Below are positions 37,742-44,005 of a stretch of 44,005 nt of DNA, in pieces. Positions within the stretch are counted from its first letter, which is position 1, and each line of letters begins with the position of its first letter. Position numbers and translations under genes: made by a program. Origin of the DNA: an uncultured bacterium. Lineage in GTDB: Bacteria > Bacteroidota > Bacteroidia > CAILMK01. The DNA lies in the NCBI GenBank assembly GCA_903829945.1, contig CAIKRV010000040.1, positions 1 through 44,005 on the forward strand, written 5' to 3'. The notes beneath the pieces were generated by a model. That model saw only the letters and a program-made list of their open reading frames with translations. It searched no databases and was not told the DNA's origin.

Positions 37742-38452
37742 TTATTCTGCCGGCGCATACACAATTTCACCCACCTTAAACATACATAATACGTCTGCCA
37801 GTTGTACATTGTATTCTTCAGGCGTTAAGGAATTATCAGCTTTTAAGGTAATCACCATATTTGTATTGCGAATAATACGTTTAATGGTAAACATATTTTG
37901 TTTGATGCTAACGGCATGCACCCCTGTTGCATATTCCCATCTTCCGTTGGGTACCTCACGAACAATAACAATAGTACCCGGTTTATAAGTAGGGTACATA
38001 CTTTCCCCTTCTATTTCCATGGCGTAGGCATTTTCATAGGAATGTCCGAAAACTTTTAAAACCGGATATTTCTTTAAAGTAGCCACTTGCGACAAGTCTT
38101 GGTAAATATTATCGGTAAAGCTTGCAGCAGCCTTAGCGTCAATCATTGGCAACTCTATAATTTCCATATCAGAGAGGCGACCCACCATCTTAGCGCCGGA
38201 CTCTTCTGCTAAAATATCCCTATCATCTAAAAACATAGGACCTTCATCGCGCATAAGCCAATCATTGCTAACTTTAGTTTTCATTAGTATATTATCGAGC
38301 ACATCAAAACCGGGCTTACTGGTACCCTTCGTTATTTTTGCAATGGCTGCAGGAGATACACCAATTAATACGGCAAATTTTCTATCACTGATATTTAGAT
38401 GTTTTCGCAAGGCTTCAATGCGCTCACCAATGGTACTTTTTCCGTTCATCAT
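37742..38452 (-). CDS. XRE-S24 phage-type repressor
   Basis: A 236-residue cI/LexA-like transcriptional repressor. The N-terminal helix-turn-helix is visible in STIGERIEALRKHLNISDRKFAVLIGVSPAAIAKITKG (about 6-43). The C-terminal half is an S24 self-cleaving peptidase: S151 in EIEGESMYPTYKPG and K191 in FTIKRI form the Ser-Lys dyad. The linker contains AKAAASF as a possible cleavage region. It diverges from the 38559 gene across a 106-base interval with an inverted repeat, the usual lysogeny-switch layout. It probably controls the element downstream and may be inactivated by RecA-dependent self-cleavage. It is not the host LexA, since the HTH is the XRE class. Confidence 0.88.
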   Translation of the reverse strand: MMNGKSTIGERIEALRKHLNISDRKFAVLIGVSPAAIAKITKGTSKPGFDVLDNILMKTKVSNDWLMRDEGPMFLDDRDILAEESGAKMVGRLSDMEIIELPMIDAKAAASFTDNIYQDLSQVATLKKYPVLKVFGHSYENAYAMEIEGESMYPTYKPGTIVIVREVPNGRWEYATGVHAVSIKQNMFTIKRIIRNTNMVITLKADNSLTPEEYNVQLADVLCMFKVGEIVYAPAE

Positions 38453-38810: not shown

Positions 38811-39186
38811 ACACTTTAATACTAATGGTGTGATCGAAATATCACATTCATTCATCCCCTATAAAATTCATTTACGAAAATATATAGAACACATTTTTGG
38901 CAAAGCAAACGATAATGTTCTTCCCAACTTGGAACAAGAAATTATCAGAAATTATAAAGCTCATTTTCCTTGCAACAATAAACATGTATTGAACGGGGCT
39001 TTAATTTACTGGACACCCTCCTATTTTATTTTTGGTATTTATGATGCGAATGGCATAAAGATATCCGAAGGAAGAATTCCAAGATTTCAAATCATGTCGT
39101 TCTTGAAAAAAGAATGTGAATCTCTGAAAACAAATAAAACATGCTTCACTGCATTTCCAATTTCCCGTTATGAAAAGACATTATAA
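38791..39186 (+). CDS. Hypothetical protein of the prophage-like element
   Basis: A 131-residue unknown protein. It has two possible starts, ATG 38791 or 38794. Visible stretches are HLRKYIEHIFGKAND, LEQEIIRNYKAHFPC and ALIYWTPSYFIFGIYDANGIKISEG, a short alpha/beta-like fold. It overlaps its neighbours on both sides (20 bases left, 17 bases right), showing a tight operon. No function is evident. Confidence 0.55.
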   Translation: MMKRNIKHFNTNGVIEISHSFIPYKIHLRKYIEHIFGKANDNVLPNLEQEIIRNYKAHFPCNNKHVLNGALIYWTPSYFIFGIYDANGIKISEGRIPRFQIMSFLKKECESLKTNKTCFTAFPISRYEKTL

Positions 39187-39697
39187 ACTTAATTTACGGA
39201 AAAACATTCCGAATCAAAACCACTTAACTTTAAGTGAACAAATATATTCCTTGCATCAGGAAATATATGATTGGGCATTTAAATTTTGTCATACGGCACA
39301 AGATGCCCGGGATATATGCCATGATGTTTTAATAAAAGCAATCACCAAACAACATGAATATAAAAGAGACACTAATCTTAGTGCCTGGCTAAGGACTTTA
39401 TGCAGAAATCATTTTATTGATTTACAAAGGCAGAAAGAGCGTAGAAGAACCATTAAGTTATCGGATTACACCCCTGCTGAACCTTCAAAACTACATACTA
39501 TTGATAAGGACTTAATTCGTCAGTGTATTTATCAATTACCTATCAAGGAAAGAAATATTTTAACCTTATACTTATATGGCTATACACCAAAAGAAATCAG
39601 TCAGGAATTAAATATGAAATATGGATTAACGCGACAATACCTCATGACCGGAAAAAACAAATTGTATTTTAAGCTTCAAGAACTCAAGAACCTTTAA
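39170..39697 (+). CDS. ECF-like sigma factor of the prophage-like element
   Basis: A 175-residue sigma-70-family protein. Region 2 spans about 25-95: IYDWAFKFCHTAQDARDICHDVLIKAI (the core-binding DARDICHDVL form) and LSAWLRTLCRNHFIDLQRQKERR. Region 4 spans about 113-170: IYQLPIKERNILTLYLYGYTPKEISQELNMKYGLTRQYL, an HTH that binds -35 DNA. No anti-sigma gene is adjacent. It starts within the previous gene and lies 54 bases before the terminase gene, so it probably directs transcription of the element's structural genes. Confidence 0.85.
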   Translation: MKRHYKLNLRKNIPNQNHLTLSEQIYSLHQEIYDWAFKFCHTAQDARDICHDVLIKAITKQHEYKRDTNLSAWLRTLCRNHFIDLQRQKERRRTIKLSDYTPAEPSKLHTIDKDLIRQCIYQLPIKERNILTLYLYGYTPKEISQELNMKYGLTRQYLMTGKNKLYFKLQELKNL

Positions 39698-39751: not shown

Positions 39752-41071
39752 ATGTTAGCTTATCCAACCATTAAACAACATATATGCTTAAAGCTCCTTG
39801 ATTTGCCGGACGTAAAATACGTGGTCTATGGAGGAGCAGCGGGTGGCGGTAAATCATGGTTAGGGTGTCAATGGATATTGTTTAATTGTATTTACTACCC
39901 GCGTAGCCGCTGGTTTATTGGAAGAGCTGAATTAAAAAAATTAAGGTTTACCAGTTTAAAAACATTTTTTAAAGTAGCCGACAGCTTCGGCTATGTCAGC
40001 GGTGTAGATTATCATTATAATTCCACTTTAAATACCATCCATTTTCCGGATACACAAGCAGAAATTATTCTGATGGATTTAGCCTTTAAGCCTTCCGATC
40101 CTGAATACTCTTCGTTTGGCTCCTTGGAGTTTACAGGAGGATTTATTGATGAAGCCGGAGAGATAGATTTTAATGCCTTTGATACCTTAAAATCAAGAAT
40201 TGGGCGACAAGAAAACAAAGAACAAAACATTCCGCCACGCATTCTCATGACCTGTAATCCGATAAAAAATTGGTTATATCAACATTTTTACCAACCCTAT
40301 AAAAAAGGAAAATTAATGCCGGATTCTGTTTTTATCCCTTCCTTACCTTCGGATAATCCGCATTTATCCAAAACTTATAGAGAGCAATTAAACAGTATCA
40401 GCAATCCCATTAAAAAAGCCAGATTAATGCTGGGCGATTGGGAATACGATGATAGTTCCAATGAATTGTTTAATTATCAATCTCTATTAAATTTATTTAC
40501 CAATGCATTTGTCCTAAACGGTAAATCATACATAAGTATTGATGCAGCCAGAATGGGCTCCGACAAAGCAGTATTAATCCGTTGGAGCGGATTTAGGGTA
40601 CTTGAAATATTTGAATTTGAAACCTGTATGCTTACTGAAATAGTAGCCAAGGTGAATGACTGGTCCTTGCAATATGCCATACCTCGATCACAAATTATTT
40701 GTGATGAGGACGGCGTTGGCGGAGGCGTCGTGGACATGCTGCAATGTATAGGATTTCAAAACAATAAGAAATTAGAAAAAATAAGAGGAAAGGAAGAAAA
40801 TTATGCCAACCTCAAGGCCCAATGTTATTATCGATTTGCCAGGAGGGTAAACAATAATGAAGTATTTATTGTACCTAAAATGTACCAAGAAGAAATTATT
40901 AAACAATTGGACTTCACCCGAAGGCGTCATCCTGATGGCGACGGGAAACTAAATATTATCAGTAAGGAAGAAATTAAAAGACAATTAGGACATTCTCCGG
41001 ATTATGCGGATGCCTTAATTATGAGAGAATACTTTGAACTCAACACTAAAATTATACACCTCGGAATTTAG
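39752..41071 (+). CDS. Phage terminase large subunit
   Basis: The DNA-packaging motor and nuclease, 439 residues and apparently complete. The ATPase part has Walker A GGAAGGGKSW (K34) and Walker B GGFIDEAGE (D133, E134), followed by the coupling motif ILMTCNP. The RNase H-like nuclease has D264 in ISIDAARMGSDK, D318 in ICDEDGVGGG, and D417/D420 in HSPDYADALIM, so all acidic residues of the active site are kept. In tailed phages it cuts concatemeric DNA and pumps it into the capsid. No typical small subunit gene precedes it. It is followed directly by tail-type genes and not by portal and capsid genes. Confidence 0.93.
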   Translation: MLAYPTIKQHICLKLLDLPDVKYVVYGGAAGGGKSWLGCQWILFNCIYYPRSRWFIGRAELKKLRFTSLKTFFKVADSFGYVSGVDYHYNSTLNTIHFPDTQAEIILMDLAFKPSDPEYSSFGSLEFTGGFIDEAGEIDFNAFDTLKSRIGRQENKEQNIPPRILMTCNPIKNWLYQHFYQPYKKGKLMPDSVFIPSLPSDNPHLSKTYREQLNSISNPIKKARLMLGDWEYDDSSNELFNYQSLLNLFTNAFVLNGKSYISIDAARMGSDKAVLIRWSGFRVLEIFEFETCMLTEIVAKVNDWSLQYAIPRSQIICDEDGVGGGVVDMLQCIGFQNNKKLEKIRGKEENYANLKAQCYYRFARRVNNNEVFIVPKMYQEEIIKQLDFTRRRHPDGDGKLNIISKEEIKRQLGHSPDYADALIMREYFELNTKIIHLGI

Positions 41072-41092: not shown

Positions 41093-41755
41093 ATGGAAAA
41101 ATTAATACTAGCCAATCAAGAATTTAACATTTACACCCATTGGCATGAGATGCCATTAAAAAATTATATCTCCTATAATTTACTCATAGAAAATAGACCG
41201 GAGCCAAATAAACTATCCACTAAAGCCATACGCTGGCAAGAGCAATTATTTTATTGCATTACAGATGTTCCACGAAGCTTAGCCAAAGAAATAGAGATAG
41301 GAATCATTGCAAAAAGCATTGCCCTGTTTTTAAAATTAACAGCTGTTAAGCCCGTGCTCGAAGAAAAAATGGCCTACTTCGAATTTAAGGGGACGCAATA
41401 TTATTGTCCATTTGGACGTAAACAAGCAGATGGCAACTATATCCCCATGGCCAAAATGACCGTCGAGGAAATGTGTGATATTATGCGACTATTGGAACTA
41501 AATGAAGGCAATAAAATTGCATCCATGAATAAAATTCCGCTGATTCTAGCCACTTTATTTAGGCCGCTGGGAGAAGAATACGATGAAGAAAAGGCAGCCG
41601 AACGAGCAGAAGAATTTTTACAATTGCCTGCCACCATTGCTATGGGAGCCTATTTTTTTTTAATTACACGTACCACTTCATTCAAAGGCATTACAGAATT
41701 ATCTGGGAGCACAGCGGTAGTACCGGTTCGGAAGAAAAAAAATATGATGAAATAA
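41093..41755 (+). CDS. Tail assembly chaperone-like protein (G-type)
   Basis: A 220-residue protein. It is helical, with MTVEEMCDIMRLLELNEGNKIASMNKIPLILATLFRP and YDEEKAAERAEEFLQLPATIAMGAYFFLIT, features that recall phage tail assembly chaperones, whose C-terminal part ends in a decoding slip. The gene ends in cgg-aag-aaa-aaa-aat-atg-atg-aaa-taa, with eight A at 41735-41742. The ORF at 41755 lies in the -1 frame and is open back through this tract. The last base of the stop is the A of the next ATG, so translational coupling is the alternative to frameshifting. Identification as chaperone rests on position, composition and the overlap. Confidence 0.62.
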   Translation: MEKLILANQEFNIYTHWHEMPLKNYISYNLLIENRPEPNKLSTKAIRWQEQLFYCITDVPRSLAKEIEIGIIAKSIALFLKLTAVKPVLEEKMAYFEFKGTQYYCPFGRKQADGNYIPMAKMTVEEMCDIMRLLELNEGNKIASMNKIPLILATLFRPLGEEYDEEKAAERAEEFLQLPATIAMGAYFFLITRTTSFKGITELSGSTAVVPVRKKKNMMK

Positions 41756-41757
41756 TG
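41735..41757 (+). promoter_or_regulatory. Candidate -1 programmed frameshift site (A8 tract)
   Basis: Zero-frame codons are AAA AAA AAT, giving the heptamer A-AAA-AAT at 41737-41743. A -1 slip continues as TAT GAT GAA ATA ATG CAG, with no stop until 41911-41913. The fused product would have about 273 residues. The zero-frame stop (41753-41755) overlaps the ATG of the -1 ORF. The layout copies the lambda G/GT site. Confidence 0.55.
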
Positions 41758-41913
41758 CAGCCATTTTCTTGGTATGCATCTATTTTACTTTATGCCAACA
41801 ATGAGCCGATGAAAATACCGGCCGCATTAAAAATGAATGCCTATGATTTTCTTGATTATTTAAAATTTGAAAAAGCAAAAAGCCTTGCCCAAAGGTATTG
41901 CACTAAATCCTAA
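41755..41913 (+). CDS. Small -1-frame ORF, T-like extension of the tail chaperone
   Basis: A 52-residue ORF, too short for most gene callers. It reads MQPFSWYASILLYAN, then EPMKIPAALKMNAYDFLDYLK, then FEKAKSLAQRYC. This resembles the short T part of G/GT fusions: a conserved Trp near the start and a helix with hydrophobic and basic residues. It is in the -1 frame relative to the gene at 41093 and contiguous with it through the A8 tract. Its own ATG overlaps the previous stop (TAATG), so separate translation is also possible. The next gene starts 3 bases after its stop. Confidence 0.6.
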   Translation: MQPFSWYASILLYANNEPMKIPAALKMNAYDFLDYLKFEKAKSLAQRYCTKS

Positions 41914-41916
41914 AAT

Positions 41917-42381
41917 ATGAAACAACTGAAAGACCTTATTCAACATATTAAAAATATTGCCATCAGCCAAGGCATTGAAGAGGTAAATTATGGCTTAGAA
42001 CACGAAATAAATACATTAGCAAGTACTACATTCCCCTGTTTGTGCATACAATCGGGAAAGCCACATTTTTATATTAATCAAACGGATATATTAAAAGAAG
42101 CTGCATACGAGTATCACAATTTAGAATTAATACTTTGGGATAGTTTTCCAATGTCACAAATAAAAAATGAAGGCACTGCCCATAAATTCTCCGAGATGCA
42201 TTTAAAGCTCATTCAATTATTGCAAGCTTGTTTTAATCAAAATCATATTACTCATTATGTGCTGATGCCAAATTTGCATGCCAAAGGATTTAATACGATT
42301 AAACAAAAATCAAAACAATTGGCAGAAACCAGAATAACGATTTGTGTTAGAATTTTTCATGGTCATTCTCTAAATATATAA
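41917..42381 (+). CDS. Hypothetical phage-type structural protein
   Basis: A 154-residue protein I cannot name. It opens MKQLKDLIQHIKNIAISQGIEEVNYGLEHEINTLAS and contains PCLCIQSG, YEYHNLELILWDSF, HKFSEMHLKLIQLLQACF and a beta-rich end ETRITICVRIFHG. The size and the succession of a helix, beta strands and a final strand recall tail-completion or connector proteins, but this is a guess from location between the chaperone pair and a probable tail protein. No membrane span or signal peptide. Confidence 0.5.
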   Translation: MKQLKDLIQHIKNIAISQGIEEVNYGLEHEINTLASTTFPCLCIQSGKPHFYINQTDILKEAAYEYHNLELILWDSFPMSQIKNEGTAHKFSEMHLKLIQLLQACFNQNHITHYVLMPNLHAKGFNTIKQKSKQLAETRITICVRIFHGHSLNI

Positions 42382-42386
42382 TTATT

Positions 42387-43649
42387 ATGTCACTCACATC
42401 CTTAATCAGTCCCGGTGATTTAAGTCCCTCCCGTAACCCGGTCTATTGGAAATTTAGTTCCTCAAATATTAATACGGAATATATTTTACTCGAAACCAAA
42501 TTGGATGGTATTACCTATCCGATCGAAATATATCCTAAAGCGCCTGACGGATATTTTTACGTAAATATACAAAGGCAAATAGAATCCTGCTTTGCTGGAA
42601 AAGAAAAAATAAATAATTGGTTTCCGGCAGCTCCTGGATTAAGCGTTGTTAAAAATGAAACCGATGCACTTTTAGTATATTTCAGCGTTAAAGCTTGGGA
42701 AGTTATTATTAGCGGCTCAAGTATTGCCAATCACTACATCGGAGATGCAGGCCCCGGCACAGGTACGCCGGATTATACATCAGGAAGCGATCATTTATAT
42801 TGTATCAGAGCTGCCCGTCAACATGAAGACCTTCCTGACCTAAGCGCATATAAGCAATTATCAGAAAATAAATTTCTGACTCATATGCCATTATCCAGAA
42901 GTATCCTTCCTAATGTACCCCATTGCCTATATTATTACTTAAAAAGCAATGTACTGGTAGGAACACAAATCAACCTTAGGATTAATTACGTTTTAAATAA
43001 TGGTAGCACCGGAAGTATTACGATTCCTCAGTCGGGAATGTTAACACAAGGTTTATATAATATCCCGGTTGGTACAAATAATATAAAAAATATGGCCGCC
43101 AATATAGGATCATATATAAATTTTAATACTTCCGGTACGGGTATCCGAGAATATAGTATATTTTTATTAAGTACTCAACCAAGCAATCCAGGAATACCGC
43201 CGATACTAATTTCCGAAACCAGAAAATTCATTCCCGATTATACTGACTATCCGGTACAATTTCATTTGATTTGGCAAAATCCATTGGGAGTTTATGATGC
43301 GCACACATTTATTGGCTCCTATAAAAAGAATGATACCGGAGAAAAAGAGATGTACTTACGCAGTAAAGATTGGGAACAAGATTTTCCACAGCTTGGATAT
43401 ACGGATATAAATAACAAACATACCATTATCCATGAGGTATTGAGTGAATTTGTATCCAAAGAGATGTTGGATGTATTATGGGAATTACGAAAATCGCTAC
43501 GTGTTTGGCATTTAATTACTGCTGAAAACAAAGATAAGGTTTGGAATCCCATCAATCTGATAGCGGAAGAAAGACCCCGAGAGCAATTCGGACAGCATCT
43601 GTACGAAATGAGTTTTAAATTTATTCCATCACAAGCACAAATTATTTAA
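42387..43649 (+). CDS. Probable phage structural (tail-associated) protein
   Basis: A 420-residue, beta-rich protein. The opening SPGDLSPSRNPVYWKFSSSNINTEY resembles the beginnings of Bacteroidota prophage proteins of the tail region, in which a SRNPVxWKF-type motif starts a beta-sandwich module. A Gly/Asn/Ser-rich centre (LNNGSTGSITIPQSG, NNIKNMAANIGSYI) and a C-terminal NPIN-type part (DKVWNPINLIAEERPREQFGQHLYEMSFKF) follow. No export signal. The gene overlaps the next ORF start by one base (TAATG). It may be a tail tube, distal tail or baseplate protein; the class cannot be fixed by reading. Confidence 0.55.
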   Translation: MSLTSLISPGDLSPSRNPVYWKFSSSNINTEYILLETKLDGITYPIEIYPKAPDGYFYVNIQRQIESCFAGKEKINNWFPAAPGLSVVKNETDALLVYFSVKAWEVIISGSSIANHYIGDAGPGTGTPDYTSGSDHLYCIRAARQHEDLPDLSAYKQLSENKFLTHMPLSRSILPNVPHCLYYYLKSNVLVGTQINLRINYVLNNGSTGSITIPQSGMLTQGLYNIPVGTNNIKNMAANIGSYINFNTSGTGIREYSIFLLSTQPSNPGIPPILISETRKFIPDYTDYPVQFHLIWQNPLGVYDAHTFIGSYKKNDTGEKEMYLRSKDWEQDFPQLGYTDINNKHTIIHEVLSEFVSKEMLDVLWELRKSLRVWHLITAENKDKVWNPINLIAEERPREQFGQHLYEMSFKFIPSQAQII

Positions 43650-44005
43650 TGATGACCAACTTTAAAAAAAATAACGATGCTTCTAATAATGACCCTGAAG
43701 CAGGCGTCGATATAAATTCTCAGTTTTCAGATTTTCGAAACAACATAGGAAATTTTAAAGAAGAGCTTAAAAAATGGGAACAAGAAAACAATCGAAGTAT
43801 TCAAAATTCAATATTAAAATTAAAAGAATATCAGAAGGTACTAAGCGATATTTCTAAAGAATTTAGTCAAAACAGTTCCGATCAAAAAAACAATGAAGGA
43901 CCATTAAGTTTTTTAAGTTTAAAGAGTAGTGACCAAAGTAAAATATTAAATCAGTGGAAGAGTTTACGAAACGAACTAAAAAAAAGTAGTTCGGAATATT
44001 ATCAA
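43649..44005 (+). CDS. Partial coiled-coil ORF, possible tape measure protein N-terminus
   Basis: The ORF starts at ATG 43649, overlapping the previous stop by one base, and stays open to the window end (119 codons seen). The residues are rich in Lys, Ser, Asn and Gln and form long helices (FRNNIGNFKEELKKWEQENN, KLKEYQKVLSDISKEF). Position after a tail chaperone pair and a tail-type protein is where phages place the tape measure gene, and coiled-coil helix is typical of its N-terminal part. The right end is missing, so identity is an inference. Confidence 0.5.
   Translation, partial: MMTNFKKNNDASNNDPEAGVDINSQFSDFRNNIGNFKEELKKWEQENNRSIQNSILKLKEYQKVLSDISKEFSQNSSDQKNNEGPLSFLSLKSSDQSKILNQWKSLRNELKKSSSEYYQ

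Follow-up and report, generated by a model that had tools for sequence, protein, structure and literature searches.

A run of nine T's as the candidate recoding site of a tail-chaperone-like gene in a Bacteroidota prophage

In the 44,005-nucleotide stretch of DNA analysed here (the window), a complete contig (C40) from a draft genome of 2.9 Mb, a prophage gene at 41093-41913 (+ strand) is predicted to encode a 220-residue tail-assembly-chaperone-like protein and, as a minor fraction, a 273-residue fusion extended in the -1 frame. The recoding site is almost certainly a run of nine T's (T9) at 41653-41661. Crossing at this run through RNA-polymerase slippage, in a recoding arrangement like that of lambda G/GT, is likely to be the best explanation of the sequence data. 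In the proposed mechanism, the polymerase would slip on the nine T's, a length equal to its 9-10 bp RNA-DNA hybrid, and part of the transcripts would gain an extra U. Translated in the normal way, such a U10 mRNA would lead into the -1 frame, giving ...GAYFFFNYTYHFIQRHYRIIWEHSG...PFSWYAS..., and the two products would act on the tape measure like lambda gpG/gpGT. Production of the fusion, slipping by the polymerase rather than the ribosome, and this action on the tape measure are what we infer from the comparisons below.

The prophage gene and its conserved T run

The prophage genes lie at the right part of the window in the order repressor, sigma-70, terminase, two ORFs, tail genes, contig end. 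The assignment of the host to the Bacteroidota is based on the relatives of the gene. The left edge of the prophage is an S24/CI-like repressor gene (37742-38452, - strand; Pfam Peptidase_S24 and HTH_3, PHROG 4), and the remaining genes are on the + strand. A sigma-70-like factor (39170-39697; Pfam Sigma70_r2/r4_2) is followed by the upstream neighbour of ORF1, the terminase large subunit (39752-41071; Pfam Terminase_3, PHROG 2), which gave no match when used as a query against the viral contigs. Beyond the two ORFs come a 154-residue protein placed by position as the next tail-region gene (41917-42381), a 420-residue protein (42387-43649) related to the tail-region protein at L058:6872-8077 (BLASTP E=2e-6), and the start of a probable tape measure (43649-44005), which is cut by the contig end, was assigned by position and low-complexity helical sequence, and had no family match in Pfam or PHROG. 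Nonlabens phage P12024L also has a sigma-70-like gene (L140:3460-3939) a short way 5' of its terminase, as in the window, and it is possibly a late-gene sigma factor.

The first-pass annotation of this DNA had proposed that programmed recoding with a shift to the -1 phase fuses two ORFs in a prophage, 5' of its tail genes, and these elements are supported. ORF1 (41093-41755, 220 residues), the G-like unshifted product, and ORF2 (41755-41913, 52 residues, -1 phase) are both present, the ATG of ORF2 overlaps the TAA of ORF1 by one base, and the two frames allow a 273-residue fusion, which homology supports. T9, which that annotation did not mention, lies inside the frame overlap in the context GCC TAT TTT TTT TTA ATT, and it is the sole run of at least nine in the 44-kb window.

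To locate the crossing, a profile was made from relatives, leaving out the window, and was then scored against the window. ORF1 matched with E=8e-15 as far as T9 and the -1 frame with E=3e-7, and the two alignments meet at T9. When the window was fused at every possible codon and scored with the same profile, the scores stayed level at 79-82 bits as far as T9, where the crossing scored 81.2 bits. The predicted -1-frame extension, the T-like part of the fusion, spans 41659-41913 (FNYTYHF...AQRYCTKS). The peptide IIWEHSGSTGSEEK is predicted by the T9 crossing only. ORF2 is probably just the end of this extension, the -1-frame homology of the relatives reaching far upstream of 41755. In the first two viral relatives (L002 and L003), a T9 is found at the residues aligned to the window T9, and downstream of it the -1 frame stays open to the end. 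Four further lineages (L005, L006, L008 and L011) carry T9 in the same codon phase, always 84 nt 5' of the ORF1 stop. Several relatives have a stop codon in the -1 frame only 0-3 nt 5' of the T run, and therefore a crossing upstream of the run is excluded in them.

The run was conserved throughout the collected relatives. All 161 distinct sequences, which group into 41 clusters when cut at 60% identity and into 25 when cut at 50%, have 9-12 T's at the homologous junction (T9 in 143, T10 in 17 and T12 in 1), with no run of 7 or 8. The searches used patterns from peptide stretches outside the T run, so the run played no part in the choice of sequences. With the L057 protein as query, T9 was present in 80/80 loci, while a P12024L-based search returned 80 far more distant loci, mostly at 27-35% identity, whose runs of 9 (61 loci), 10 (18) and 12 (1) cover codon phases 0, 1 and 2. 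T9 was found in viral contigs (L023, L025-L028), in Dysgonomonas capnocytophagoides (L015) and three genomes (L056-L058), and the T9 junction also occurs in the isolated Nonlabens phages P12024L and P12024S and in orphan chromosomal copies. A P12024L-type profile gave no match in the genome, and the window itself was likewise missed by that profile. Across the relatives the run occupies all three codon phases (0, 1 and 2), the clades showing the forms xxT TTT TTT TTr, xTT TTT TTT Txx and TTT TTT TTT, and the residues flanking the constant FF differ (VFFY, LFFW, AFFL, SFFL, FFFL). Because both phase and flanking residues vary, what is kept appears to be the length of the run and not the peptide or the codon register.

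Slippage by the polymerase or by the ribosome

Since both mechanisms would yield an identical protein, the choice between them rests on what selection keeps. We compared run counts in 374 sampled host genes, about 605 kb of the genome (L222-L261 and window 1-38450), with the counts expected from synonymous-codon shuffles. Runs of at least nine were nearly absent: no T run was seen against about 15 expected, and one A run against about 32, or 1 against about 47 for both combined. Runs of eight were only mildly depleted (T8, 21 seen and 33 expected; A8, 39 seen and 62 expected). A break at nine has been described as a sign of a slippage-prone polymerase (Baranov et al. 2005, PMC1088944), and a 2016 review gives efficient slippage at nine A or T, with an RNA-DNA hybrid of 9-10 bp (PMC5009743). 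The frame junction of the phage genes holds an A/T homopolymer of at least nine, free in codon phase, of a kind that host coding sequence avoids. It is this combination of run length and free phase that favors transcriptional slippage.

The alternative that survives best is a programmed -1 ribosomal frameshift at the same T9, with tandem tRNA-Phe slipping on U_UUU_UUU (or, in the window, U_UUU_UUA) according to the lambda G/GT paradigm. An in-phase heptamer is available in every relative, the direction of the shift is the usual -1, and most studied phage tail chaperones use this mechanism, several of them without a stimulatory structure (PMC5009743). Seven in-phase T's would suffice for it, yet at least nine are present in 161/161 sequences and in three phases, and conservation is neither limited to the heptamer nor phase-locked on it. 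In the 374 host genes, in-phase U_UUU_UUU occurs 50 times (35 in T7 and 15 in T8) and never in a longer run, and all 30 occurrences in the other genes of the phage loci are T7. Comparable heptamers elsewhere thus never exceed T8, whereas at the junction the in-phase heptamer lies within a run of at least nine in 138/138 genes, and two T7 sites in these genes are away from the junction. No structure stands out on either side of the run: pseudoknot-free single-sequence folds upstream and downstream of T9 gave no signal, with z-scores of -0.8 to +0.6 for the 80 nt downstream in nine sequences. Ribosomal frameshifting at T9 therefore seems to us unlikely, although it retains appreciable weight.

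Polymerase slippage at T9 is favored with no more than fair confidence because the sequences are related and the DNA around the run is doubly coding. Every run of at least nine also holds an in-phase U_UUU_UUU, which counts against a polymerase-only reading. The run codes in both frames, and amino-acid constraint could help to keep the extra T's; longer runs might aid ribosomal slippage too. It seems reasonably likely, beyond this one gene, that tailed phages of many Bacteroidota lineages adjust the ratio of their two chaperones through polymerase slippage on a conserved run of at least nine T's, not through ribosomal frameshifting, and so exploit the polymerase of a host that keeps its own genes clear of such runs.

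Crossing at the A tract, or no crossing

The first-pass annotation had placed the recoding at an A8 tract (41735-41742), 82 nt 3' of the start of T9, as a -1 ribosomal slip on A-AAA-AAT at 41737-41743, and had the -1 frame opening only from there. The tract is present and reads AAA AAA AAT with the heptamer correctly phased, and beyond it the -1 frame, in which the tract encodes the KK of EEKKYDEI, is open. That frame is already open from 41587, 148 nt 5' of A8, and runs through to 41913, and A8 is thus one of several possible crossing points. A fusion crossed there scores 68.3 bits with the window-free profile, 13 bits lower than at T9, and the -1-frame homology reaches upstream of A8. The KKN-YDEI junction peptide that had been offered as a marker of the fusion is not supported, the crossing being placed at T9; the peptide GITELSGSTAVVPVR is expected from unshifted translation as well as from a fusion made at A8. 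Nor did the homologues bear out a conserved A tract, and a broken tract in them is what the first-pass annotation had itself named as refuting its model. The relatives have no A run there ahead of the ORF1 stop, and the T9-T12 run is always found upstream, at the homologous junction. Most close viral homologues have an A run coding KK, matching EKKY of the window, about 30 nt past the ORF1 stop, where it cannot be the slip site because it is beyond the stop, and L005 has no A run near the position matching A8. As a feature A8 is unremarkable, since eight such runs occur in the window and 39 in the 374 host genes. Slippage at A8 is thus very improbable.

It is just as improbable that no recoding takes place and that the split reflects a decayed gene, a sequencing error dividing one ORF, or two separately started proteins: homopolymers are error-prone and ORF2 could start at an ATG of its own that overlaps the TAA, but an identical division into two ORFs, with this phase relation and the T run, recurs in about 160 independently sequenced contigs and two isolated phages, by which sequencing error and gene decay are excluded, and the -1-frame homology begins far upstream of the ORF2 ATG.

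Comparison with known chaperones and slippage systems

Programmed ribosomal frameshifting has a textbook example in the lambda G/GT switch, which many tailed phages share. As with lambda gpG/gpGT, the frames of the window predict one gene giving a short product and a small C-terminal extension in the -1 frame, and the gene lies just 5' of tail genes and of a probable tape measure. Unlike lambda, the slip site here would be a run of at least nine T's in any codon phase and not a G_GGA_AAG-type heptamer, the gene directly follows the terminase, and chaperone matches in sequence or fold are lacking. We found no chaperone match in Pfam or PHROG for the gene products and no fold match in the PDB, using models of moderate confidence (pLDDT 69.5 and 80), while the L003 fusion matched a PHROG 'membrane protein' family (E=2e-4). 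The small second part carries a tryptophan (PFSW, KPFGW or KWGWY), the next gene in L003 matches a tail terminator, and in L058 a PHROG tape measure lies near the chaperone-like gene. Position and architecture suggest a tail-chaperone role in the manner of lambda G/GT, to which no match shows the gene to be homologous.

The closest described gene order is that of the Nonlabens phages P12024L (ORFs 40/41) and P12024S (ORFs 38/39), of the genus Inhavirus, in which sigma-70, terminase, two overlapping ORFs and the tail region follow one another and the junction is a T9; their run differs in codon phase from that of the window (cTT TTT TTT Tat). Both ORF pairs are annotated as two hypothetical proteins, with recoding unmentioned. 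Transcriptional slippage at A9/T9 in Thermus dnaX, in Shigella mxiE and spa13 and in IS elements resembles the proposed mechanism in its homopolymer of nine A or T, in a host that avoids runs of nine, and in one extra nucleotide leading to a -1-frame fusion, whereas these known cases are bacterial, secretion-system or transposon genes. The tail chaperones of T4-like phages also come as more than one product, the two being made without frameshifting according to a reference in PMC10885494; their route to these products is another one, a distinction drawn here by description and not by sequence. A survey of frame transitions reported 6-7% frameshifting in HK97-like chaperones (PMC3711429). A literature search that drew mostly on papers outside subscription turned up no tail chaperone attributed to polymerase slippage.

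If polymerase slippage at T9 is true, the two-product logic of these phages would have been kept while the switch moved from the ribosome to the RNA polymerase, so that the product ratio and not the mechanism would be conserved. In annotating Bacteroidota phages, the feature to seek would be a T9-T12 run close to where the first ORF of the tail module ends.

Several chromosomal loci of the family have neighborhoods of their own. The chaperone-like genes of D. capnocytophagoides (L015:4647-5389) and of L056:8581-9329 have an intact T9 and are surrounded by chromosomal genes, among which neither a tail gene nor a terminase was recognised; judged from sequence, they may be remnants or pieces of a dispersed phage-derived element. 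In a chromosomal tail module at L058:1488-10048, the T9 chaperone gene is on the + strand, opposite to the tape measure and two tail genes, which are encoded on the - strand; the module adjoins iscS/iscU-like genes, and no terminase was found within 19 kb. A tblastn match to Flavobacterium phage laban6-1 (E=5) was set aside as chance. The same phage carries an A10 run (L014:7884-7893) close to the 3' end of gp013, a small hypothetical gene, and immediately ahead of the gene that follows; this run could be another slippage site, unrelated to the T9 chaperone-like family.
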